Positions 31,635 through 50,896 of a stretch of DNA of 64,000 bases are shown piece by piece. A model generated the notes under the pieces. The model saw only the letters and a list, made by a program, of their open reading frames with translations, had not been told where the DNA came from and ran no database searches. Position 1 is the stretch's first letter. Each line of letters starts with the position of its first letter. The stretch is from Flectonema sp. DT1601 (taxonomy: Eukaryota > Euglenozoa > Diplonemea > Diplonemida > Diplonemidae): positions 1,116,001 to 1,180,000 of the forward strand of contig OZ025801.1 in NCBI GenBank assembly GCA_964019425.1. The letters are read 5' to 3'. A program made the position numbers and the translations under genes.

Positions 31635-32127
31635 TAGCGGTTGTGAAACGGTCTTGAACTTGTTCGACCTTGGGAGCCACATGTTTTTCCCAGAGTTTGT
31701 TGCTATTTATTTAGTTTTGCATTCTTTTTTTATTTTACGACTTACAATATGTTTCCGTTCCTGTTGGGTCCTCAACCCTAACATGTGACACATGCAGTCT
31801 TGTTTATAATTATTCCTGTAAAGTTAAGCTCTCTTTATTTTTCTAATCTGGCTGAGTGTGAAGTTTTTTTTACCGAATTCAACATTATTTCACACCTGGG
31901 CATGTTTGAACAAACTTGGAAACAAGTCTGCCTTTGACTCATTAGCCGCACTGACTTACGAAGCAGTCTCTTCCCACAATCTAAGAATTTCACCTACGTA
32001 CGACCCTCATGGCAAACCCGCAAGGTCCTCGCCTTTACCTTAAATTATTTCTTCGGGTTAAGAAACAAAAATGACCAATTATTCCACGCTTTGTCATACA
32101 CGCCTGGAAGACGAAAAAATTAAAAAT
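31635..32127. other. Intergenic region
   Basis: 3' UTR of the membrane protein gene and unassigned sequence. It ends with an A-rich stretch (32110-32127) that on the minus strand is the T-rich Pol III terminator of the tRNA gene. Confidence 0.45.
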
Positions 32128-32199
32128 CAACCGTGGCAGGACTCGAACCTGCAACCGCCTGATCCGTAGTCAGGCGCTCTTCCATTGAGCCACACGGTC
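32128..32199 (-). tRNA. tRNA-Arg (anticodon ACG), no intron
   Basis: The 72-nt cloverleaf folds on the minus strand. The acceptor stem GACCGTG pairs with CACGGTT (first pair G-U) and the D arm is GGCTCAATGGAAGAGC. The anticodon stem CCTGA/TCAGG closes the loop CTACGGA with anticodon ACG. The T arm is GCAGG-TTCGAGT-CCTGC and the discriminator is G. A- and B-box promoter sequences are present in the D and T arms. A T-rich stretch (ATTTTTAATTTTTT) follows directly, as needed for Pol III termination. In eukaryotes the A34 is normally edited to inosine to read CGU/CGC/CGA. A LINE lies immediately upstream on the same strand, its poly(A) ending 12 bp before the tRNA. Confidence 0.95.
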
Positions 32200-32713
32200 A
32201 CTGAAAGACCGTTTTTTTTTTTTTTTTTTTTTTCTTTTGGTTACACTCGTCTGTGCTTCCAGACTCTTTGTTTTTGTTCTTTTCACTTCTTTGTTTTGTC
32301 TTTCTTTTATACTTTCTTTTGATTTAAGTCTGACAAATTGGAAAACACGGGAAACGTAGGTAGGCTCCGCCTGAGGACGTAAGAAGAGCGGCAACGGAAG
32401 AAAATAAATGGTCACGCGTCCTTGAAATTGGACACATGAAGCTAATTCGGTTACCATTCCTACCATCGATAAGGAAAAACAAAGAGTCGAGCATATAACT
32501 AGAGCGGTGGTCAAAGACCACTTGAACAGCCCGAAGGCCTGCCCTCAAGAGAAATTTATAAGGAGAATAGGAGAAGAAGGAGACAGGAGTGTTGGATGAG
32601 ACACTGCGACAACACCGAAGGTGATGTGCAGTTACCCAACCAGGAGATGATTGATAATGATGAAAATACTAAAATAATAACAAATTGATATTGGCGACTA
32701 CATGTCACCTACT

Positions 32714-35700
32714 TTACTTCCAAAGTCTAAGGTTAGATGTTTGTTCCATCCACCTTATGATCAACGCGAGTGATGGAAGCCACGCCAAAGTGAAGAGAGC
32801 TTCAAGGTTAGGAATTTCGTTGGCAATAATAAGTTCTCGATCGCGATCCCACTTGCCGGTCAGTGTTGAGAAGCCCAGGATTTTGAACCTGGCCGAGTCG
32901 AGTTTGGGAGATTGACATCCCTGTAGCAGGTGAACCTGTGAGGACGGTTCGCCACAAAATGGGCAGTCGATCGTCTTGCGCCAGTTCTGAATTAGCGGGT
33001 GACATCCTGTCCGGAAGTTCGCTATCCGTATCTCGTCGGCTCTTTCCATCCCAGGAGGGTATTTAACGGAACGGCCTCCGATGAGGTGTTTGTAGCAGGT
33101 GTAACCACTCACGTTAAGCAGATCCTTCTTGATGCAGCGCTTAACATGTGATGATCGCGAGAAATAAGTGCCTTTGACTAGCACAGGTCGGATGTTCTTG
33201 TTGTGCGCTGCTTCCTTTGCAAGCGCGTCAACTTCATCGTGAAACTCGATTCCAATGTGCGAGGGGATGAATTGCAAATGCACTTTCATCTCACACATGC
33301 GCAGGTATTCTAGTATCTTGAGGGACTCAGTATTCCTCTGTCTGCACCTTCCACCCAGCAGTTCATCCAGAAGGGATTTTGAGTCCGTGAATAACCTTAC
33401 AGATCTCATTGAAGGATCTTTGCTAAACACTGTTCTCAGATGTCTAGCCGCGTTCTTCAGAGCATGTTGTTCAGCCCTGTAGCTGCAGTCAGCTTGATAA
33501 AGCCTAGACGCGTAAGCAGATCGAAGGCCGCTACGTGACTTGGCAATATGAGCCGCACCGGCCGCGCCGGAAGCAGAGTAGGAGCCATCGCAGTTGATTA
33601 CCATGTCGACAGGAGGTAACGTTCCAATGTACGACATGAATTTTTCTTTGTCCACCGCAGGGTTCGCGGACTTCGGAAATCCGCAGCCGTTGCTAATCCT
33701 AAGGTTTGTCGGAGATACCCAGGGTTCCATCGAGTCAGGCTGTACAAGGCACTGGCTTTCACGCTGGCTGTCAATGCCAGGAAGGAGGCCAGCCCAGTAG
33801 CTTTGGGTTGAGGCGAGTCTGTTGGTACTAGGTATCCAAGTCATGGCTTTATACCTGTAGTACGCTATCTTGGTTTGCTTTTCAATCTGACGTTTAAAAG
33901 GAAGCATGTCCGCTTCCCACAGTAGAAGTTCTCTCGGTGTGCACCTGCTGCATCCAGTAACCAGCCTGGCAACCTTCCTCAGTTCGAAATCAATACTATC
34001 AACGCTGTTGCTTATCAACCAACCAAAGCTATCGAGTGCATAAGAGATTCTCGCAGTTACGTAAAGGTTCTTGACCATATTTAGCGTTTTGTAGTCAAGA
34101 TCATACGGTTGAAGGCATTGAAGCAGAGATATTCCCTTTTTCAGTTCTTCATGAATCTTAGCCACCTGTTTGTGGAAAGTGAGTCTGTCGTCGATGTGAA
34201 CCCCGAGGTATTTCACTGAGTCCACGATTGGCAACAGAAATGCGGTTTTAAATCTGGCTTTCACCACCATCACGTTGTCTTCGAGAACAATATTCCGCAA
34301 CATCACGTTGTCAAGTTCGTCTTGCGTTTTGATCGGAGTTCCATCAACCTCGAGAATAGTTTCGCCGCTTTGAAGCATGGGTCTAGAAGAGTTTAAGTTG
34401 ATACTCTTTTCAATGTCACTATAGTCCATTTTGATAACGTTTTCCACAACAGATCTGGAAAATAGTAATTCGCGATTGCAGGTGTCGTTGAGAATCGTAT
34501 CCTTCGTACGGACTATCATCTTAAGAGCACAGGTCTTTGAGACCGACAGGGCCATGTCGTTGTCAGAACACCATTGATCCACTTTATCAAGTATTATTTG
34601 TGCATTTGAAAGAGCTTCTTCCATGTTATGTCCAGATACTACACATGCTGTATCATCCGGATACAGAGCAGACGTCGTTGTTTCCTTCTCCAGTTCCAAA
34701 ATCTTGCAGAGGTCATCAACGTAGATAAGATAGAGAAGAGGACCCAGGATCGATCCCTGTGGAACCCCCTTAGCCAGAGTACGGAATTCGCTAAGATAAC
34801 CATTCGCTTCAACTCTAACTTTCCTGTTTGTAAGAAAGTCTGTGATCCATCTGATAATAACATTCGGAACACCCATCTTTACCAATTTTAATAAAAGTAT
34901 CTTATGATTGATCCTGTCAAACGCAGCAGTAAAATCAAACGATAAGAACACCGATCTCTTTCTCTTCATGTGCATCCTTACGACGGCATCTACCAAAACG
35001 GTGATCTGTTCGCAGGTATTTCTCCCCCTTCTGAATCCAGCCTGTAGTGGGCTGAGTGACGAATGTTTAGTGAGCCAGTGCATGAGTCGGTCATACACGA
35101 GCCTCTCCGCAAGTTTCCCAACAACCGATGTGAGCGTAATGGGTCTGAAACTCTTCAGTTCATTTCGAGGTTTTCCAGCCTTGAACATAGGCTTGATTAA
35201 ACCTTGTTTCCACTGATACGGTACTTTTGAAGTCTTCCAGGAAGTGTTAATAATTCTCAAGAGGTATTCCACTGTTGCCGGAGTGAAGTTTTTGATCATC
35301 TCATTGTGAACTCCATCAGGTCCTGCAGCCTTGCGGGTCTTCAGGTTCTTAATCGCTGCTTCAATTTCGGCCATTGTGAAATCACAGCAAATATCCATTT
35401 CATTATCACCTTCTGAGAGTGCGGGGGCCTCTAGCGATAATATTTCCGATTTCGAGACAAACAGGTCCAAGAATGCTGATGGTAGATCGCAGTCAGAGAT
35501 GTTGTTGACACTGATATCTTTACCAGCATCTTGCTGCAGTTCTTTGATCTTCTTAAACGCAAAGGCAAAGTTGTTACCCTTGTCAAGTTGATCACGTAGG
35601 TGGACACCCTTCGATTTGGCGGAATCAGGAGTTGACGTCTTCCACTTTCGTCTCCGTTTCCCTTTGAAAAGGACACGTCGACGAATGAATTTAGCCGCTA

Positions 35701-36625
35701 CTTCATGCAGTATGTTGTTAAAGAGCTTAGCATTCGCAGTTGCATCGTTGGAGAGTTTCGATTTTCTAATTCTCTTATCGAGCATATTTCCAAAGCAGTT
35801 CCAGTCCGTAGACTTGAAGTCCCACACTACGCGTTTCTTAGAACCTATCGTGGCCCGTGTAAGTTGACACATGGGATCCAGTACGGTGTAGAGAGGTCGG
35901 TGATCAGATCCATGTTTATTATCTTCTCTAATTACAGAGAATTCTTCCAGAATCATCGAGTTTTGAAAAAATATTACGTCCGGCGAGGTACCGCCCCCCG
36001 GGATATTAGGAAAAGGCCTTGTGATTGACCCCATCTTGTTGGCTACCAGTAGATCATTGTGTGCTGCCCATTCATGTAGAGTAGAACCTGCTGGCGTCGA
36101 TTTTGATGACCACACCGGATGATGGGCATTAAAGTCACCCGCGACGATTGCTTTCGTTGAGACTGGAAGATCTGACTTTCTGATCTTGCATCCCGGGGGA
36201 GCATAAATATTTAAGATGTCAATCTTTCCACCTATGTTGACCTTTACAACTTCAACATCATTTAAGTGAGGCGGAAGTACGATATCAGAACGCTGCTGAG
36301 TGTGGCATTTCTTCACCATAGTAATAACCCCACCACCCCGTGTTGCCCTATCATTCCGATAGGTAAAATAATCCGTGTGTGAGACTACATCTTTTGTCCA
36401 AGTTTCTTGCAGGCACAGTACGTCAGGCGCATAGGCATTGAGCAGCTTGTGTATGTAGGCACCTTTGTTCCCCATTGATCGACAGTTCCAGCTTAGTAGT
36501 GATATGAGGGAGTCGTCAGGGCCAGGGTTGCGTTCGACATCGCCTGCCTGAAGCAGCAGTTCACGAGCCGTATTCTTTTCTGTGAGTGAGTTGGTCGGAT
36601 TTAAATCATCGTCATCTTCATCTAG
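32714..36625 (-). CDS. LINE ORF2: APE endonuclease, reverse transcriptase, RNase H, zinc finger
   Basis: The frame is open from the codon after the ORF1 UGA (36625). The first Met is at 36475, but that Met lies inside the endonuclease, after LSWNCRS, so it cannot be the true start. After the 2A motif comes APE endonuclease: WNCRS, LQETW, NIYAP, GDFNAHH, SPDVIF, GSDHRPL, all catalytic positions present. The reverse transcriptase has motif A FDFTAAFDRI, motif B GVPQGSILGPL and motif C LYPDDTA, where Pro replaces the usual Ala of YADD. Before VKYLGVHID lies an insertion with a PDZ-like look. RNase H follows: NCDGSYS, YRAEQHAL, FTDSKSLL, HDEVDALAKEA. The C-terminal finger is CPFCGEPSSQVHLLQGC (CX2CX7HX4C). 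The enzyme copies LINE RNA by target-primed reverse transcription. Confidence 0.9.
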   Translation of the reverse strand, partial: LDEDDDDLNPTNSLTEKNTARELLLQAGDVERNPGPDDSLISLLSWNCRSMGNKGAYIHKLLNAYAPDVLCLQETWTKDVVSHTDYFTYRNDRATRGGGVITMVKKCHTQQRSDIVLPPHLNDVEVVKVNIGGKIDILNIYAPPGCKIRKSDLPVSTKAIVAGDFNAHHPVWSSKSTPAGSTLHEWAAHNDLLVANKMGSITRPFPNIPGGGTSPDVIFFQNSMILEEFSVIREDNKHGSDHRPLYTVLDPMCQLTRATIGSKKRVVWDFKSTDWNCFGNMLDKRIRKSKLSNDATANAKLFNNILHEVAAKFIRRRVLFKGKRRRKWKTSTPDSAKSKGVHLRDQLDKGNNFAFAFKKIKELQQDAGKDISVNNISDCDLPSAFLDLFVSKSEILSLEAPALSEGDNEMDICCDFTMAEIEAAIKNLKTRKAAGPDGVHNEMIKNFTPATVEYLLRIINTSWKTSKVPYQWKQGLIKPMFKAGKPRNELKSFRPITLTSVVGKLAERLVYDRLMHWLTKHSSLSPLQAGFRRGRNTCEQITVLVDAVVRMHMKRKRSVFLSFDFTAAFDRINHKILLLKLVKMGVPNVIIRWITDFLTNRKVRVEANGYLSEFRTLAKGVPQGSILGPLLYLIYVDDLCKILELEKETTTSALYPDDTACVVSGHNMEEALSNAQIILDKVDQWCSDNDMALSVSKTCALKMIVRTKDTILNDTCNRELLFSRSVVENVIKMDYSDIEKSINLNSSRPMLQSGETILEVDGTPIKTQDELDNVMLRNIVLEDNVMVVKARFKTAFLLPIVDSVKYLGVHIDDRLTFHKQVAKIHEELKKGISLLQCLQPYDLDYKTLNMVKNLYVTARISYALDSFGWLISNSVDSIDFELRKVARLVTGCSRCTPRELLLWEADMLPFKRQIEKQTKIAYYRYKAMTWIPSTNRLASTQSYWAGLLPGIDSQRESQCLVQPDSMEPWVSPTNLRISNGCGFPKSANPAVDKEKFMSYIGTLPPVDMVINCDGSYSASGAAGAAHIAKSRSGLRSAYASRLYQADCSYRAEQHALKNAARHLRTVFSKDPSMRSVRLFTDSKSLLDELLGGRCRQRNTESLKILEYLRMCEMKVHLQFIPSHIGIEFHDEVDALAKEAAHNKNIRPVLVKGTYFSRSSHVKRCIKKDLLNVSGYTCYKHLIGGRSVKYPPGMERADEIRIANFRTGCHPLIQNWRKTIDCPFCGEPSSQVHLLQGCQSPKLDSARFKILGFSTLTGKWDRDRELIIANEIPNLEALFTLAWLPSLALIIRWMEQTSNLRLWK
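36518..36565 (-). other. 2A-type ribosome-skipping peptide between LINE ORFs
   Basis: The peptide RELLLQAGDVERNPGP is encoded in frame with ORF2, 20 codons after the ORF1 stop. It fulfils the 2A consensus D[VI]ExNPGP, with the upstream LLxxAGD helix seen in picornavirus 2A. Translation through 2A releases the upstream protein after NPG and restarts at Pro, here 12 residues before the endonuclease WNCRS motif. 2A-like peptides are known in trypanosomatid L1Tc/ingi and some animal LINEs. Confidence 0.88.
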
Positions 36626-36628
36626 TCA
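36622..36628 (-). promoter_or_regulatory. Candidate stop-codon readthrough site, UGA-CUAG
   Basis: ORF1 ends ...GAC CTC AAC TGA, followed by CTA GAT GAA GAT GAC. The context UGA CUA G is the strongest readthrough context known in eukaryotic viruses and cellular genes. The same frame continues open into ORF2, and the acidic composition (DDDSDFDLN before, LDEDDDDLN after) is uninterrupted across the stop. A recent nonsense change is the alternative. Confidence 0.6.
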
Positions 36629-38272
36629 GTTGAGGTCAAAATCCGAGTCATCATCTTCCATTTCAACATCGCCGTTCTTATCACCTTCTTGTTTAACAGC
36701 AGATTCAGTGGGTGGTGGAGCTGATGCTGGTGTGGGTGCTGGCGCTGGTGTCGGTGCTGCTGCCGTCTGATGTGGTAGCTGAGTTGGTTGTTGTGGTTGA
36801 GGAGCTGTCTTCTGTCTCTTCAGGGTTCCTGTCAGTTTTTGAGCCGCGTCGCCTGGGTTGTAGGTTGGGCCTAGCGGTTTTCTGTCACTTTTCTTAACTT
36901 CCTTGTTTATCACAAGGTACTCATTGGTGCCTATGCTCACGAAGTTGGGAGGCTGCGTGTTTGAAATCGCCACAATCGTAGTGCTTCCACCTTTGTTAAA
37001 CGATGCGACCACTGTGTGCTCCCAGTTGTGAGAGGACTTCATAAAGTCGCTGATCTGCGCTGTTGAGAATTTCCGTATCGCCATTGATTTTATAATGTAC
37101 CTGTCACCGGAAGGCAGTGCAGGTTTGAGTGACGCGCTTAACTTAATACGCACTTCAGTGTTGCAGTCGGGATGAACTCGGAGTCCATAACAGGTTTTGA
37201 ACTTACACAGGTAGAATTTACCTTCGAAACCTTCCAGTATTGATGTCTTGGACTTTGCTGCCAAGAATCCAAGATCGTTATTGAATTGAAGAGTTGGCCA
37301 GACATCGCTTCCATTTGACCAGCTCGGGTTTCTGACAAATACATTCTTAGGTTTGTCGGTCTCCGGGTCGTTATTGTTAAACTCCAGAATCTTGTGTACT
37401 TGGTTTCTGGGAATTCTAATAGCCATTGAGGAATGTGAATCATTTCGTTTGTAACTGAAAGGGGCTGCATTAATCTTTTTCTTTTTTAGCAGTTCCTTTG
37501 TTTTGATCGTTAGATCTTTTTCACTTGATTTGCCCCAATCCTGAACAAACAAGACGGGGTCGGGTGTCGGATGTTGAATTTCGGATGTGGCTTTGGAAAA
37601 ATCTTCACCACAGATATGCGTGTAGAAGACTCGTCTGATTTCGCAGACACCACCCTTTTTGATCACCGGTATGGCGACAGGCACCGTGCTTTTGGTTAGC
37701 GGTACTTTGCTGATTGCAGCCCATCGACCACTCTTCTTTGTCTGACGGAGAGCTTCCCAGTCCTGTTTAGAGCGTACTAAAACAAGACCCGATGCGAGAT
37801 TGTTGGTAGCATTCGCTGCTACGTCGTAGTTGATTGTAGACACAGTGCCCGCCCACGCGCCGTGTACATGCCATTCCGGGTAGCTTGCTTTAGCATTTCC
37901 CTTTGTGGTTTGTTTAGTCGATGTTGATGATGGTACAGGCAGCGGAAACGAAAAGGTTGATTGTTTAGGTGCCGATGTTGTCTGTTGATTAGAAGCTGTA
38001 GACGCCTCTGTTGTCGGTTGATTGCTGCCTGCGGTTGGGGCCGTCGCTTCGGTTGCCGTCGCGGTCGCATCCGTCCCACCACCCACTTCGGGAGTGTCCG
38101 GTCTTCTTCTTTTCATCTCAGGGTTCCCACCTTCCGACCCCGTCACGAACTGGATAACCTCCATCAGGAGATTCGCCACTCTTTTCTCTTTCTCATACTC
38201 GGGGATCCCATCATCTCCCACCATCTTCAGGAGGTTCATAGCCTCCGATACTAACCTCCTCAGGTTGTCTCT
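36626..38272 (-). CDS. LINE ORF1 protein (unknown, acidic C-terminus)
   Basis: The protein is 548 aa from the first ATG; the frame reaches 38335 only through a TTG. The N-terminal 80 residues are helical, followed by a Thr/Ala/Gln-rich linker to about 145. The region about 150-450 looks folded, with many aromatic and basic residues (YPEWHVHGAWAG, VFVRNPSWSNGSDVWP), but I see neither CCHC knuckles nor an RRM or esterase signature. The C-terminus is Pro/Ala/Thr-rich, then acidic up to the UGA. By position it should be the nucleic-acid binding ORF1p of the ribonucleoprotein, and the TLKRQK region may help RNA binding; both are inferences. Its fold appears unlike the standard ORF1 types. Confidence 0.75.
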   Translation of the reverse strand, partial: RDNLRRLVSEAMNLLKMVGDDGIPEYEKEKRVANLLMEVIQFVTGSEGGNPEMKRRRPDTPEVGGGTDATATATEATAPTAGSNQPTTEASTASNQQTTSAPKQSTFSFPLPVPSSTSTKQTTKGNAKASYPEWHVHGAWAGTVSTINYDVAANATNNLASGLVLVRSKQDWEALRQTKKSGRWAAISKVPLTKSTVPVAIPVIKKGGVCEIRRVFYTHICGEDFSKATSEIQHPTPDPVLFVQDWGKSSEKDLTIKTKELLKKKKINAAPFSYKRNDSHSSMAIRIPRNQVHKILEFNNNDPETDKPKNVFVRNPSWSNGSDVWPTLQFNNDLGFLAAKSKTSILEGFEGKFYLCKFKTCYGLRVHPDCNTEVRIKLSASLKPALPSGDRYIIKSMAIRKFSTAQISDFMKSSHNWEHTVVASFNKGGSTTIVAISNTQPPNFVSIGTNEYLVINKEVKKSDRKPLGPTYNPGDAAQKLTGTLKRQKTAPQPQQPTQLPHQTAAAPTPAPAPTPASAPPPTESAVKQEGDKNGDVEMEDDDSDFDLN

Positions 38273-39009
38273 CATAATTGCTTTTCCTGTGAAACGTACC
38301 CACTGATTCTTACCAATATTTGGTTGCGAAATCAATAAAGTACAGAAAGTACAGAAAGTACAGTTTTTTTTTCTCTTTTCTTCTTTTTCGATTCTTTTAA
38401 CTTTATATTTGTCTTCTTTTTTCTTTTTTTAAATAAGTTTTTACTCTTTGAGTGTCTACCTACGATACTCGGTGGTCTGATGGACTTGCTAACTAACTAA
38501 CTAACTTTTTCTTTCTTAGGCCTCACTCATGCGCACTCACTTGCTTATTTATTTAGTTATAAAAATAAGAAGAGCGAGTACGCTCAGAAAGAAAACAAAA
38601 AATAAGACAGGGGTGTGACTTTTCTTTTTAAGAGAATTGTGGCAGCGTAACTAACCTATTCCTTTATTAGGATTTTCTACCGGTTGCGCGCAAACAAAAT
38701 AAAAGTGTGAGTGAGTAAGTAAAAAGTGAAGTTTGCCGATTCTTTTTCTTTCCCCTTCCGAAATCCATTATTTTCGGTGCACATGACGCTGCAGAAAATA
38801 TTACTTATGAATCATTTAGGTGTTAGTTTCTTTTTTTACCGTTTGTCCTAATACCTGCGCTCTTATAAAAGACAGGAACGCGCAACTGTCAGGAGTCCGC
38901 TAGTTTTCGTGCTCTTTCTATTGTTCTTGACATTTTCTATTCCTTCTTTCGAGTGTTCTCTCCCTTACTGGTTCTGTTATACATTTTCTATTCAGGACGG
39001 AATGCAAGT
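38273..39009. other. LINE 5' UTR and leader of SAM gene
   Basis: From 38273 to about 38600 is probably the LINE 5' UTR (minus strand), including three TACAGAAAG-like units at 38341-38363 and four AACT units near 38490. The dispersed repeat copy 2 (38631-38747) follows, then the leader of the SAM gene with a TACATTTTCTATTCAG acceptor-like site ending 38996. Confidence 0.4.
38631..38747. repeat. Dispersed ~115-bp repeat, copy 2
   Basis: Same orientation and roughly 80% identical to 21018-21139. The stem here uses GCGTAAC against GTTGCGC, so pairing is kept although the 5' arm differs (GGCAGCGTAACTAACC versus GGAAGCGCGTAACC). It ends CGATTCTTTTTCTTT. It lies just outside the LINE 5' end. Confidence 0.7.
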
Positions 39010-45826: not shown

Positions 45827-48800
45827 GTGGATAATGTTGATGAAGTTGCTCAGTACATTAAAAGTAACTACTCCTCTCTTCAAGAAATGAGAGTTAGCAC
45901 TTTTGACTTCTCAGATATGTACACCAACTTACCACATACAAAAATTAAAGCTGTTATTAATACATTAGTCGAAGAATACATTGGAGACAATTTGATAGTT
46001 AGAGATAAACGAAGTCGAATTGGTAAAGATTTCTACTTGGCAAACGAATTTAACGAAGATGTGCAAGTTGCTTACAACATAGAGGAGATCAAGGAACTAC
46101 TGAATGTAATACTATCTAATTCTTATATTAAAAATGGTGACCATATGTTAAGGCAATGTCATGGTATTCCAATGGGTTCTCAATGCTCTCCTCACATTGC
46201 TAATCTGTACTGCTTTGGTATCGAAAAGAACTGGATTGACAACATCATCCATAGCAATGGTTTAAGTATTGCTAATGACAGGATAATCTTCAGATATATT
46301 GATGACTTTCTAATCTTTAGTAAGAATGAACCTACTCCACCTCCGCAAGCTGAATATCAAATGTCATACACAGATACGTCACTTGGACGCAATGACATAG
46401 TTTTCCTAGGAATGAGAGTAAGATTTGAAGAAAGACCAAGAGGACATCCATTCATTCGTCTGTCAATTTGGGACAAAGAAAATCTGTTCAATTTTCAACC
46501 CATCAAATACACAAGCTCGACATCAAACGCACCAAGAAGCCTTGGTCCGGGCATATTGAAAGGAGCCTTGTACAGAGCAGCAACCAATATCAACAATGAC
46601 TTCGACTTATACTTGGAAATCGAAAAGGTGATTTACAGGCTACGCAGCCGAGGGTACTCGAAGAAGAGCCTCTTCCCACAATACAAAGATTTCATTCTTA
46701 GTACATACTGGGATTTTCCGAAACAGAGAGATAACCTCCAGCAATTCTTTTTCAAGACAAATTGGAGATATGACAAGGAACTACCCGTCACCTCTGAGAA
46801 GAAAACAATCCAACAGTACTACAAACTGAATGGACGAGATGACATTTATAACATGTTACTCGATAAGAACGTTGGGTATGCAAAACTCAAAAAATGTAAT
46901 AACACCATGGTTACTGCATTCCGGATTGCAAGTCACTCAATCACTAACAATCCAGATCAATGTCTAATATGTTCCACCGCAATAAACAAGAACACTGAGA
47001 CACAGATTGATGCTTTGGATATTAAATATCGCAATGGGATATTTAAAGTAACCAAATTTTGCAAAGACTTCGACAAAATACTACCTGTTAACATCAGTAT
47101 TCTATCATACGACCAGGGTAAGACAACCCGTGAAATAATTAACAAACATGTGAATCACGAATGTCACATGGTTGTTGGTCGTACTAATGGAGGTTATTAC
47201 TTTCCAATTACAAGTAAATATACGGAAAGTAATATTCAAAAAATCTTCCTCAAGGTTGACACGCCTGGAAAATCGGCGGAAGTTACAACAGAAGGGAAGT
47301 CAACTCCTAACACATCAGATACTGATGTAGTTATGACAGACAACACCACAGAAACGCAAGAAGATGAAACGGAAAAATCTCAAACTGAAAAACCGGTTAT
47401 GAAGAATGATAGAGATCCTGAATGGGATATCTCGATCGATAAAAGGTTTCCTATTTCTATGCACACTAAACCAGCTGAAGGCCTTAACAGCGGTGAGTGT
47501 GGCTGGGCCACCATTAATTTTATGGCTGATTATCTGAACATCGAGAGAATTCAGATATCTAAAGTCTTTAAGATTCAAGATGAGTTGGCAACACAAGAAA
47601 TGAAGTGGTTAGGATTGGTTGAAATGTTCCAATTCAATCCTGATGGATGGTTTCACCAATTAGTCATATATGAGACAATTAAGATTCATCTGTCCTTAGA
47701 AATACACCATTGTACCAGCGCAGAAGATTTAGATAAAGTCAACAATATACTCAAAGAACAAAACCTAAAACGCTTTCCATTCGTTATAATTACACGTAGA
47801 TTAGCATACACTCACTATATCTTATTTATCGGAAAAGATACAGAGTATACAGGATATGATATCATTCAACACACTCCAAGTTATGAAACGTGGAATGACA
47901 TTGCCAGGATATATCCTTTGGAAACATTTGACTATCACTTCGCATTCTGCCCTACAAAAAACAATCCTATGGAGAAACTCCAATTTCCGAACCTCGATTA
48001 TCCAACAATGGAGCCCCACATGGAAAACAAACAAGAGAAAGATACTCTTAGTCAAAAGACGAATGATAACGATGACACAGCACTGTTATACGAGATGTTA
48101 CAGAAATTTGAAGAGGATGATATCTCTACAACAGCTAAAGCCGCAGATCCATTGGATTTGAGATCTTCGAATGAAAATACTACTCATAAGGAAGTCATTC
48201 AAGAACCAAAGAAAGTCATTCAAGAACCGAAGGAAGTCATTCAAGAACCAAAGGAAGTCATTCAAGATCCAAAGGAAGTCATTCAAGATCCAAAGGAAGT
48301 CATTCAAGATCCAAAGAAAGTCATTCAAGATCCAAAGGAAGTCATTCAAGAACCAAAGGAAGTCACTCAAGATCCAAAGGAAGTCACTCAAGATCCAAAG
48401 AAAGTCATTCAAGATCCAAAGGAAGTCATTCAAGATCCAAAGGAAGTCATTCAAGATCCAAAGAAAGTCATTCAAGATCCAAAGGAAGTCATTCAAGATC
48501 CAAAGGAAGTCATTCAAGATCCAAAGGAAGTCATTCAAAATCCAGAGATAGATACACACCTAGATCCAAAAATAGGTCAGCAAGATGTGGATTTGGACGA
48601 TAAGGAAGCAATAGTTGTTGCTAACAAGGCTTCTAAACCCAATACTCACTTCGACATCACTGATTACATAACTTCTGAAGATCAAAAGTCAAATGATTTT
48701 GTAAGTGGAACCACAAAGCTCACTAAGTTTCCCAATCATATCTTGAACACCAATCAGAATACTAACTTATGTCATATGGAATATGCTACACCAAATACCG

Positions 48801-50896
48801 ATGTACATATGGAATCACCAATGACCACTATTCTAACTGGTCCACTTTATAATACGGATACACAATTTAATTACGAAAATACAACACTTATAATTGCAAC
48901 ACCGCAGATTATACCAACCATCCCAAACTTTCATAACCTATATCACAGCTCATCTGGGTGTCAAATCATGGCGGTATCACCTCTGAGAATATACAAAGTA
49001 AATACAATTGCTGCCATCTCACCCCCACAAGTCTATCACAACGGGGACAGCATTGTTGCCATCTCACCGCCAACTATCCATGATACTAAGAGTCCAACAG
49101 ATGTTACTTCACCAACTCGGATGGATATTGATATTGACACGGTGATTGCCGTCAATAACAGAAGTCTATATGATATTGACATCATCCCACCACCACATGT
49201 GGATACTCTTATAAGTACCAAGAAAAAGAGTAACGACTCAATTCATAAAACTTGCCTTACCGATGTCGATAACAATAGCTACAACGAGATATCACCACCA
49301 CAAACGGATGTACATATGTTGATCAATAACAATGATCTCAACGTAATTGAGCCTATTGCACCACCACATACGGGTGTTCATACGGTAATTAACAACAACA
49401 GTCTCGAGACATTCGGGTATATTTCACCACCGCAGACTGGTATTCATATGCCTATAGTTATCGACAACAACAGTATCAACGCAAACGAACTTGCTTCACC
49501 ACCACAAACTAATGTTCATATGGAGGTCAGAAACAATAGTCTCATTGCGACTGAGGCTATATCACCACCGTGTTTAGAAACACCTGAACATCGACATGTG
49601 TTTGAAACACCGGTAAAACAAAAGTCGGGAGGCAAAATCAAAACTCCGACAACCAACAAGATTGTCCCACAAGAACCACTAACTTGTTGGAATGGACACA
49701 ATCGGGAGCTTATTTATGATTTAGCAATGAATAGGCAACCTAACAAGATTGTTACAACATACACTGCACCATCGTTAAAAGTTACAACTCCGAAAACAGC
49801 AGCACGAAATAACACTGTTGTCATAGACACAGAAGATAGTATGAACCCCGTAACTTCAATGCCGGAAAGTTTAAGTGATGCCCTTGAACCTTGTTCAAAA
49901 CGTAACAAAAAGTCCAATATACTGTCTCATAAACATGCTATGAAGCAATCCAAAAAGAAAGCTTTCAATAATGGATCTCACGAGTCAATTATCCCTAAAA
50001 CTAAAGTCATTACGCAATCACATACGCAGATTAAGGATAAAACATCGGAACCTATCAATGAAGAATCTAGTAAGATACTTCCCCAACTTAAAGATGAAAC
50101 CGGAAGTAAGAAAGATGAGACATCGTCGCATGTTGAACTAGAAAAGGCAACAGAAGTTAATACAATAGTTGAGAACTCAATGACCGACGTGCCAACGACA
50201 ACATCCTCGTCAGAACCATCCTACAAAGATACAACGCATATCAAGAGGAAATGTAAATATTGCTTCAAGACTAAAAAATCAATTATTGATCATGTCCACA
50301 TATGCGCAATATTCAGAGCCTCAAAGGACTTTCCATATTACATGGATCATGATAATACAACGTATGAAGTTAACAACAGTGATGGCTCCAACAAGATCAC
50401 AATGGTCATCAAGGAGAAGAAGAAATTAAACATGCGGTCTATCAAAAGAGGTACAAAACTAGTAACACAAATTCTTGAGAAAGAGGATAGTACACTAACT
50501 ACACCAAAAAGAGATACCCGCAAAAGATTAAATTCTGAAAGTCCGATTCCAATAATCGAATTTAATGGATACATGGACAAGGACAAGAGAAAAAAGTTAG
50601 AGAATAAGAACGGATCTAAAAGTAAACGCAAGATCAAAGTTGAGGTTAATAAGATGCTAGTCGCTTCAACAAAAAAGAAGGAGAAGTCGAAATATACAAA
50701 GAGATTAAATTCTGAAAGTCCTATGCAGCCGCTACTAAGAAAAGATGTACGAAAGAAACGAGCCAAACAAGAAGATATCAACACACCTAAAAGTGAAGAT
50801 AAAGAGAACGTTACGAACATCTTAGATACTCCTTCGACTCCTGCTTTACATGATTTTGAAGATGTATCAGAGTATGCATCAGAGCTTGATAATTAA
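45827..50896 (+). CDS. PLE polyprotein: reverse transcriptase, Josephin-like protease, repeats, C2HC finger
   Basis: The frame is open from 45815. 45827 is a GTG and the first ATG is 45887, so the N-terminus is missing or spliced on, perhaps at the AAAACAG ending 45798. Residue numbers count from 45827 (1689 aa). RT: motif A FDFSDMYTNLPH (D27), motif B GIPMGSQCSPHIANLY (113-128), motif C RYIDDFLIF (D159, D160), then a PLE-type thumb (GPGILKGALYRAATNI). Residues about 545-710 resemble a Josephin cysteine protease: SGECGWATINF with C558, DGWFHQLVIYETIKIHLSLE, THYILFIGKD with H663, GYDII with D678. A 17-unit K[EK]V[IT]Q[DE]P array begins near 788, degenerate SPPQTxVHM units lie around 1060-1245, and a CX2CX9HX3C finger spans 1476-1493. 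The tail is Lys-rich. No GIY-YIG nuclease is seen. Confidence 0.8.
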   Translation: MDNVDEVAQYIKSNYSSLQEMRVSTFDFSDMYTNLPHTKIKAVINTLVEEYIGDNLIVRDKRSRIGKDFYLANEFNEDVQVAYNIEEIKELLNVILSNSYIKNGDHMLRQCHGIPMGSQCSPHIANLYCFGIEKNWIDNIIHSNGLSIANDRIIFRYIDDFLIFSKNEPTPPPQAEYQMSYTDTSLGRNDIVFLGMRVRFEERPRGHPFIRLSIWDKENLFNFQPIKYTSSTSNAPRSLGPGILKGALYRAATNINNDFDLYLEIEKVIYRLRSRGYSKKSLFPQYKDFILSTYWDFPKQRDNLQQFFFKTNWRYDKELPVTSEKKTIQQYYKLNGRDDIYNMLLDKNVGYAKLKKCNNTMVTAFRIASHSITNNPDQCLICSTAINKNTETQIDALDIKYRNGIFKVTKFCKDFDKILPVNISILSYDQGKTTREIINKHVNHECHMVVGRTNGGYYFPITSKYTESNIQKIFLKVDTPGKSAEVTTEGKSTPNTSDTDVVMTDNTTETQEDETEKSQTEKPVMKNDRDPEWDISIDKRFPISMHTKPAEGLNSGECGWATINFMADYLNIERIQISKVFKIQDELATQEMKWLGLVEMFQFNPDGWFHQLVIYETIKIHLSLEIHHCTSAEDLDKVNNILKEQNLKRFPFVIITRRLAYTHYILFIGKDTEYTGYDIIQHTPSYETWNDIARIYPLETFDYHFAFCPTKNNPMEKLQFPNLDYPTMEPHMENKQEKDTLSQKTNDNDDTALLYEMLQKFEEDDISTTAKAADPLDLRSSNENTTHKEVIQEPKKVIQEPKEVIQEPKEVIQDPKEVIQDPKEVIQDPKKVIQDPKEVIQEPKEVTQDPKEVTQDPKKVIQDPKEVIQDPKEVIQDPKKVIQDPKEVIQDPKEVIQDPKEVIQNPEIDTHLDPKIGQQDVDLDDKEAIVVANKASKPNTHFDITDYITSEDQKSNDFVSGTTKLTKFPNHILNTNQNTNLCHMEYATPNTDVHMESPMTTILTGPLYNTDTQFNYENTTLIIATPQIIPTIPNFHNLYHSSSGCQIMAVSPLRIYKVNTIAAISPPQVYHNGDSIVAISPPTIHDTKSPTDVTSPTRMDIDIDTVIAVNNRSLYDIDIIPPPHVDTLISTKKKSNDSIHKTCLTDVDNNSYNEISPPQTDVHMLINNNDLNVIEPIAPPHTGVHTVINNNSLETFGYISPPQTGIHMPIVIDNNSINANELASPPQTNVHMEVRNNSLIATEAISPPCLETPEHRHVFETPVKQKSGGKIKTPTTNKIVPQEPLTCWNGHNRELIYDLAMNRQPNKIVTTYTAPSLKVTTPKTAARNNTVVIDTEDSMNPVTSMPESLSDALEPCSKRNKKSNILSHKHAMKQSKKKAFNNGSHESIIPKTKVITQSHTQIKDKTSEPINEESSKILPQLKDETGSKKDETSSHVELEKATEVNTIVENSMTDVPTTTSSSEPSYKDTTHIKRKCKYCFKTKKSIIDHVHICAIFRASKDFPYYMDHDNTTYEVNNSDGSNKITMVIKEKKKLNMRSIKRGTKLVTQILEKEDSTLTTPKRDTRKRLNSESPIPIIEFNGYMDKDKRKKLENKNGSKSKRKIKVEVNKMLVASTKKKEKSKYTKRLNSESPMQPLLRKDVRKKRAKQEDINTPKSEDKENVTNILDTPSTPALHDFEDVSEYASELDN
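47466..47960 (+). other. Josephin-like cysteine protease domain inside the PLE protein
   Basis: Candidate triad C558, H663, D678: spacings 105 and 15 residues. In ataxin-3 the Josephin triad is C14, H119, N134, with the same spacings. Flanking patterns also match: a helix after the Cys (ATINFMADYL against a Leu-Asn-Asn-Leu helix), a G-[FW]-[FH]-x-x-Q-V-I segment in the middle, and a final hydrophobic strand. Asp in place of Asn is acceptable in papain-fold proteases. Recognition is by eye only. Confidence 0.6.
48188..48544 (+). repeat. 21-bp tandem repeat, 17 units, coding for K[EK]V[IT]Q[DE]P
   Basis: Each unit is 21 bases, e.g. AAGGAAGTCATTCAAGATCC plus A. Seventeen consecutive units with few substitutions (E/K at position 2, I/T at 4, D/E/N at 6) lie in frame within the PLE protein. 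Because the unit lacks stops in other frames, long shadow frames exist in the other + frame and on the minus strand. Confidence 0.95.

Follow-up and report, generated by a model that had tools for sequence, protein, structure and literature searches.

Organization of the LINE within the window

The window analysed here is a stretch of 64,000 nucleotides from the diplonemid Flectonema sp. DT1601 (GenBank assembly GCA_964019425.1, contig OZ025801.1, positions 1,116,001 to 1,180,000 of the forward strand). Its minus strand encodes a long interspersed nuclear element (LINE) with two open reading frames (ORFs), in which ORF1 ends at a TGA, the same frame continues into ORF2, and a 2A (StopGo) motif lies between the stop and the endonuclease. 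The parts of this element, in window positions, are as follows.

32212..38363, minus strand: LINE element with approximate ends, these being the 5' limit (~38363) and the 3' limit (~32212) of the sequence common to other copies
36626..38275, minus strand: ORF1 of type A, 549 codons from the first ATG (38275), plus TGA
36622..36631, minus strand: stop context AAC-TGA-CTAG, with TGA at 36628-36626 and CTAG at 36625-36622
36542..36625, minus strand: in-frame spacer of 28 codons devoid of in-frame ATG, the predicted tail of an extended ORF1
36518..36565, minus strand: 2A (StopGo) motif RELLLQAG-DVERNPGP, with the octapeptide DVERNPGP at 36541-36518
32714..36520, minus strand: ORF2 protein counted from the 2A proline, with endonuclease, reverse transcriptase and RNase H-like region, ending at TAA 32716-32714
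36476..36490, minus strand: WNCRS, start of the endonuclease fold with its conserved Asn, as read in translation
36473..36475, minus strand: first in-frame AUG past the ORF1 stop, directly downstream of WNCRS

The initial annotation had described an ORF1 ending in TGA-CTAG with the frame open into ORF2, and this was confirmed: the 3' end of ORF1 reads GAT TTT GAC CTC AAC TGA on the minus strand, and the frame past the TGA stays open for 1303 codons, up to the TAA of ORF2. The 2A motif was also correctly placed as beginning 20 codons past the stop, the R of RELLLQAGDVERNPGP being the 21st codon, and the predicted skip site lies between its G (36523-36521) and P (36520-36518). The distance from the last 2A proline to WNCRS, given earlier as 12 residues, was corrected to nine.

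The ORF1 product, which is the window's own protein in cluster P0241 (549 amino acids, 13 members), had no domain recognised in the Pfam search. ORF2 matched PF03372, PF14529 and the reverse transcriptase family PF00078 (E 1.4e-32) in Pfam and the LINE-1 ORF2p chain at E 3.8e-20, and the position of the AP-like endonuclease (PF03372, PF14529) N-terminal to the reverse transcriptase places the element among LINEs of the apurinic/apyrimidinic endonuclease (APE) type. The Asn of WNCRS presumably has a catalytic role, as in APE-type endonucleases. The RNase H-like region is marked by the motifs DGS, TDSKS and IPSH, seen in relatives as well as in the window ORF2; PF00075 was detected in the EukProt relatives, whereas Pfam did not call this domain in the window ORF2, so that placement of the element in the RNase H-bearing (I/ingi-like) LINE clade would be a possibility. 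The element closes with a poly-A tail (A-run 32233-32212), where the sequence common to the copies stops. The reverse transcriptase box of the window ORF2 reads YPDD in place of the YADD of relatives P0001-P0006, and the window copy may therefore be inactive.

Copies and families of the junction in the genome

We searched the same 89.5-Mb genome with a junction query of 341 bases and scored the best 40 of 65 first-look candidates; the 3' region of the element gave 277 such candidates, of which the best 40 were also scored, a surplus that may reflect 5'-shortened copies. The junction query recovered at least 39 copies of the window family (F1), 19 near-identical and 20 at 83-87%, together with one short match that belongs to another family. 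The context AAC-TGA-CTAG followed by the in-frame 2A was present in 39/39 F1 copies, 38 of which lie within this DNA-based search, which is independent of the 2A motif. A single copy among the 39 (L033) has NLGP in place of NPGP, so that the 2A residues do not vary freely between copies.

As a second approach, a codon pattern for all encodings of D(V/I)ExNPGP, which required the 2A and left the stop free, was run on the same genome. It returned 137 sites against 0 for the reversed pattern used as control, and the 2A core (D/G/C/N)(V/I)ExNPGP was found at these 137 sites. The motif is thus not a chance occurrence, since forward sites outnumber reversed ones in this way and the junction recurs in all 39 copies and in six further families. 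The pattern itself demands the motif and so is unable to show conservation of the 2A; the TGA is absent from the pattern, hence the count of TGA-bearing sites is unbiased. The survey covers 2A-bearing LINEs, and LINE families devoid of 2A may exist in the same genome. With L033, 138 sites were inspected, and 132 counted copies were assigned to seven families by stop context and by the distance in codons between the stop and the octapeptide's D.

F1: 39 copies, TGA-CTAG, distance 29
F2: 24 copies, TGA-CTTG (one CTCG), distance 49
F3: 7 copies, TGA-CTAG, distance 18
F4: 15 copies, TGA-CCGG, distance 21
F5: 8 copies, TGA-CATG, distance 19
F6: 22 copies, TGA-CTTG, distance 19
F7: 17 copies, TGA-CGGC, distance 21 (one copy 20)

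ORF1 and ORF2 share one frame in all seven families. AAN-TGA-C stands in frame, 17-48 codons ahead of the octapeptide, at 134/138 sites, and its distance is fixed within each family apart from the one copy that is off by one codon. Two F2 elements beyond the 132 (L143 and L153) carry a second, private stop nearer the 2A and still have AAC-TGA-CTTG at the family position. The other four junctions (L064, L065, L114 and L136) are frameshifted or truncated: AAATGAC and AACTGAC are retained out of frame in L065 and L136, respectively, and L114 has no such stop stretch within 190 bases ahead of the 2A. No colinear junction among the 138 sites has a sense codon at the TGA position, which had been named beforehand as the outcome that would undo the initial annotation. 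A private nonsense change or pseudogene was rejected, as the in-frame stop is kept at 134/138 sites. The further expectation that TGA-CTAG and the 2A would be conserved in other copies was borne out for AAN-UGA-C and the 2A across families, and for the full CUAG in two of the seven (F1 and F3).

Probable selection on the stop codon and its context

When the commonest sequence of each of the seven families was aligned on the stop over 60 columns, six columns were invariant, namely A at -3, A at -2, the TGA itself and C at +4. Every one of the 132 counted copies has the same bases in these six AAN-TGA-C columns, and variation is seen at -1, +5, +6 and +7; the codon following the stop specifies Leu, Pro, His or Arg depending on the family, its first base always being C. 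Among the same family representatives, the third base varies in 8/8 codons of the octapeptide, the free x codon included. We read AAN-UGA-C as being under base-level selection, as expected of a leaky stop.

UGA-CUAG is an efficient readthrough motif in four mammalian genes and in human cells, and replacement of its UGA by UAG or UAA lowers readthrough 3- to 6-fold (PMC4132726). At type II viral readthrough sites the UGA is followed by CGG or CUA, and a stem-loop frequently lies 3' of it (PMC3542737). We infer from the contexts compared that UGA-C would be the common requirement and that the strength of readthrough would differ between families.

A conserved 3' hairpin was not supported: F7 alone was significant (z -3.65, the strongest value), F4 and F5 were borderline (z about -2 over 160 bases), and the alignment of 8 of 15 distinct F4-F7 sequences, which has a 6-base gap and then variable positions after TGAC, gave no support. 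Reassignment of UGA was rejected, because neither window ORF has any other in-frame TGA and 3/17 long window ORFs outside the LINE end in TGA, none of them followed by C. No TGA-C end was present among 20 ORFs counted from ATG.

Coding constraint on the spacer and the 2A motif

We compared 11 pairs of family representatives, which are not independent of each other and do not include F3, by Nei-Gojobori counts and by a simulation placing the same changes at random. The spacer was under purifying selection in 7/11 pairs (each simulation P <0.005), with proportions of synonymous (pS) and non-synonymous (pN) differences of 0.88 and 0.09 for F6-F7, 0.82 and 0.12 for F4-F6, 0.59 and 0.15 for F4-F7, 0.44 and 0.03 for F5-F6, 0.45 and 0.03 for F1b-F1c, 0.40 and 0.11 for F1a-F1c, and 0.79 and 0.43 for F1a-F2a. 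Such selection was not seen in F1a-F1b or the three F2 pairs. In most families the stretch past the stop thus evolves as protein, which would not be expected if no ribosome ever passed the stop.

The octapeptide showed zero replacement changes in 11/11 pairs, with pS of 0.5-1.2 in five between-family pairs; F3 has T or I at its free x position. Ahead of it stand the hexapeptides LLLLAG, LLLQAG, LLLKAG, LLLIAG, LLLMAG and LLISAG, and LLLQTG in one copy, so that the hexapeptide ends in AG in 131/132 copies and in TG in one. By eye these resemble the LLLLSG-like class of 2A sequences, which are L-rich and end in (A/S/C)G before D at p12, and of which one of two motifs was put to the test and proved active in reticulocyte lysate (Li and others, PMC12846837).

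A probable two-step switch and the alternatives to it

On the observed stop, common frame, motif, conservation and coding constraint, we consider it probable that the AAN-UGA-C stop and the in-frame DVExNPGP 2A act in two steps as a switch, such that readthrough of the UGA and then StopGo would yield a minority of free ORF2 protein. Most ribosomes would terminate at the UGA and release the ORF1 protein, and a minority would read through it, likely by ordinary near-cognate decoding. Readthrough would add to ORF1 a tail of 17-48 spacer residues and the octapeptide up to NPG, amounting to 35 residues past the UGA position in the window family. At the 2A the Gly-Pro bond would be skipped, the extended ORF1 let go, and the endonuclease-reverse transcriptase made as a free protein with proline at its N-terminus. 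Readthrough feeding StopGo is favoured because it accounts jointly for the identity of the stop, the next base, the common frame, the coding spacer, the missing AUG and the 2A, and the interpretation advanced by the initial annotation is to this extent supported.

Both recoding events, their efficiencies and the low ORF2:ORF1 protein ratio are inferred, and several observations weigh against this interpretation. The full CUAG is confined to the 46 copies of F1 and F3, and the other five families have other bases after the UGA (CUUG in F2 and F6, with one CUCG in F2; CCGG in F4; CAUG in F5; CGGC in F7). The invariant adenines stand at -3 and -2, where no effect of adenines was found in the passages on stop context that were searched; in yeast the effect of upstream adenines concerns -1 and -2, and human contexts of high readthrough frequently carry G at -3 (PMC12233894). 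No 3' stem-loop was found in F1-F3, where 11/12 z values were >0 and the lowest was -0.59, and the F4-F7 consensus structure had a compensatory change in 1/18 pairs, on the same 8 of 15 distinct sequences. One frameshifted copy (L064) has AAGTGGC, with TGG, at the stop site, out of frame. The F1a-F1b spacer is near neutral (pS 0.19, pN 0.14, ratio of non-synonymous to synonymous substitution rates, dN/dS, 0.74, simulation P 0.20), and in the three F2 pairs, two of which include the decayed copy L048, pN exceeds pS (P 0.81-0.95), with no constraint. As many copies are near-identical, the weight of evidence is that of seven related families and not of 138 independent cases. Finally, one tRNA-Sec match in the genome scores higher than the curated Rfam cut-off (G000:C67:500295-500380), which bears on the decoding of UGA considered below.

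The strongest alternative, that ORF2 is begun separately by reinitiation or internal initiation after normal termination at the UGA, with the 2A trimming a short leader only, seems unlikely to us. Termination-reinitiation is established for SART1 and has been suggested for LINE-1 (PMC5972666), and an ATG within 20 bases past the stop occurs in 73/132 copies, that is in all of F1, F5 and F7 and in 9/22 of F6, one in F7 overlapping the stop itself. However, these near-stop ATGs are out of the ORF2 frame in the representatives read, and none occurs within 20 bases in F2, F3, F4 or 13 F6 copies. Nine copies (four F2, four F5 and one F7) have an in-frame ATG between the stop and the end of the 2A, but 123/132 have none; otherwise the first in-frame AUG, in copies long enough, comes 22-90 codons past DVE, beyond the start of the endonuclease. 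In the window family a protein begun at that AUG would lack the conserved endonuclease Asn, because the AUG comes right after WNCRS. The codon past the stop is CTA, CTT, CCG, CAT or CGG (one CTC), which leaves no common near-cognate start, and separate initiation would leave unexplained why ORF1 and ORF2 keep one frame in seven families and why UGA-C is retained.

Decoding of the UGA by selenocysteine insertion or by a dedicated suppressor tRNA, in place of near-cognate readthrough, is very unlikely. The tRNA-Sec gene noted above would allow the former, but no selenocysteine insertion sequence (SECIS) family matched window positions 32000-38420 at E up to 10, and the residues flanking the UGA are variable apart from the preceding Asn or Lys. 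UGA moreover serves as a stop, as the long window ORFs outside the LINE that end in TGA attest. Of the two forms of this alternative, selenocysteine decoding was the one searched for, and it was rejected because no SECIS match accompanies the tRNA-Sec gene.

An equally small probability attaches to the view that readthrough is real and the 2A inactive in this host, giving an ORF1-ORF2 fusion. Upstream context affects StopGo activity (PMC12846837) and activity is here predicted only; against this stand the octapeptide free of replacement changes despite its synonymous divergence and the nearness of the upstream hexapeptide to a known active class. Removal of the stop from the RNA by splicing or editing is extremely improbable: TGAC resembles a branch-point core and no support for such removal was found, whereas the bases past the stop continue the frame and show coding constraint in 7/11 comparisons, and spliced RNA copied back would shed the stop that 134/138 DNA copies retain.

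Apparent module exchange at the junction and relatives of the element

ORF1 occurs in two types, A in F1, F2 and F3 and B in F4-F7, which may possibly be remotely related (hhalign probability 30, E 5.5e-4, with one alignment row, L041, shortened). Their predicted folds are of low confidence, with a mean predicted local distance difference test (pLDDT) score of 54 for type B and 61 for type A, and a search with the type A model only gave no Protein Data Bank (PDB) match at E <=0.001. Over the first ~500 residues past the 2A, F3 shares ~70% identity with F5, F6 and F7 and 42-46% with F1 and F2, which are 66% identical to each other; an A-type ORF1 is thus joined in F3 to the ORF2 of the other group. 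In F4 (L058 and others) a B-type ORF1 with the stop and 2A precedes a PF03372 endonuclease for which BLAST gave no significant match among the other families. The junction appears to be a site of module exchange at which the stop and the 2A are retained.

We consider it reasonably probable that a portable cassette of leaky stop plus 2A (AAN-UGA-C, 17-48 codons, DVExNPGP) governs ORF2 output across this LINE community, having been kept while ORF1 split into two types and ORF2 was swapped, even for the unrelated F4 endonuclease. If so, this would be the first retroelement system in which two serial recoding events set how much reverse transcriptase is made as well as its free N-terminus.

Among EukProt transcripts we found ORF2 relatives P0003 and P0004, the latter with GNVEVNPGP, and ORF1 relatives P0243 and P0244. 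P0003 and P0243 have the same Trinity gene number, which, provided that both derive from a single transcriptome, suggests that they belong to one transcript cluster. P0243 and P0244, from other transcriptomes, also end in Asn, and when six A-type ORF1 proteins are aligned this final residue is the sole one past P470 without variation. No relatives were found in viral_contigs. The public predicted ORF2 proteins P0001, P0005 and P0006 begin at an internal Met and are devoid of the endonuclease start and the 2A, and for this reason the junction may have stayed hidden.

A tRNA-Arg(acg) gene lies at 32127..32200 on the minus strand, the strand of the LINE, 11 bases past its poly-A end. When 130 2A sites were compared with 63 tRNA genes (the best 63 of 4699 candidates), at least five sites lay 4332-4343 bases upstream of a tRNA gene on the same strand, which suggests integration directly upstream of tRNA genes, as in TRE5-A of Dictyostelium, a LINE with that target (PMC4559204) to which the likeness extends to target choice only. 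Upstream of the LINE, a dispersed repeat of ~120 bases (window 38630-38751) has at least ten other copies at 97-98%. Elsewhere, on the plus strand at window positions 45827-50896, an ORF of 1689 codons contains many VIQDPKE-like repeats and gives a reverse transcriptase match that barely clears the Pfam cut-off. Setting aside the window's own protein, the best two kinase hits have 43-44% identity.

Comparison with known systems

How two-ORF LINEs obtain low ORF2 output from the RNA of ORF1 itself is a long-open question, to which the junction sequence offers a possible answer. If true, readthrough and StopGo in series would be a route added beside reinitiation and single-ORF 2A. The seven natural junction variants, with one frame, the same UGA-C and differing next bases, also provide material on stop-codon context in a little-known eukaryote. 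Heras 2006 and Odon 2013 are said to describe L1Tc/ingi and animal APE-type LINEs with a 2A near the N-terminus of an ORF. These are likewise APE-type with the 2A just ahead of the endonuclease, and in the present elements a predicted leaky stop stands before the 2A. The parts are known and their combination in series in a LINE appears to be new; no description of a LINE with readthrough and 2A was found in the titles, abstract openings and passages searched, Odon 2013 and Luke 2014 not being among them. Five contigs with a 2A by pattern occur among 80 LINE-like loci of prokaryote assemblies, some of which are probably contaminant eukaryote contigs, and in none of the five is the 2A preceded by a long ORF that terminates at TGA-C in the same frame.

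Type II and UGA-CUAG readthrough, known from alphaviruses and tobraviruses and from OPRL1, OPRK1, AQP4 and MAPK10, has UGA-C in common with our elements, F1 and F3 sharing the CUAG and F7 the CGG (PMC3542737, PMC4132726). In those systems the extensions stay fused to the upstream protein, whereas the 2A here would free them, and four of the seven families have other triplets after the UGA. The retroelement Tca2 of Candida albicans likewise has an in-frame UGA between two ORFs, but it is a long terminal repeat (LTR) element, its abstract does not mention a 2A, and its junction alone gave no readthrough in S. cerevisiae (PMC2194720). Two recoding devices also lie near each other on one RNA in the cardioviruses, in which StopGo is found beside a frameshift site (PMC5009743); there StopGo comes first and the frameshift then lowers enzyme output, whereas in the LINEs described here a leaky stop would gate StopGo.

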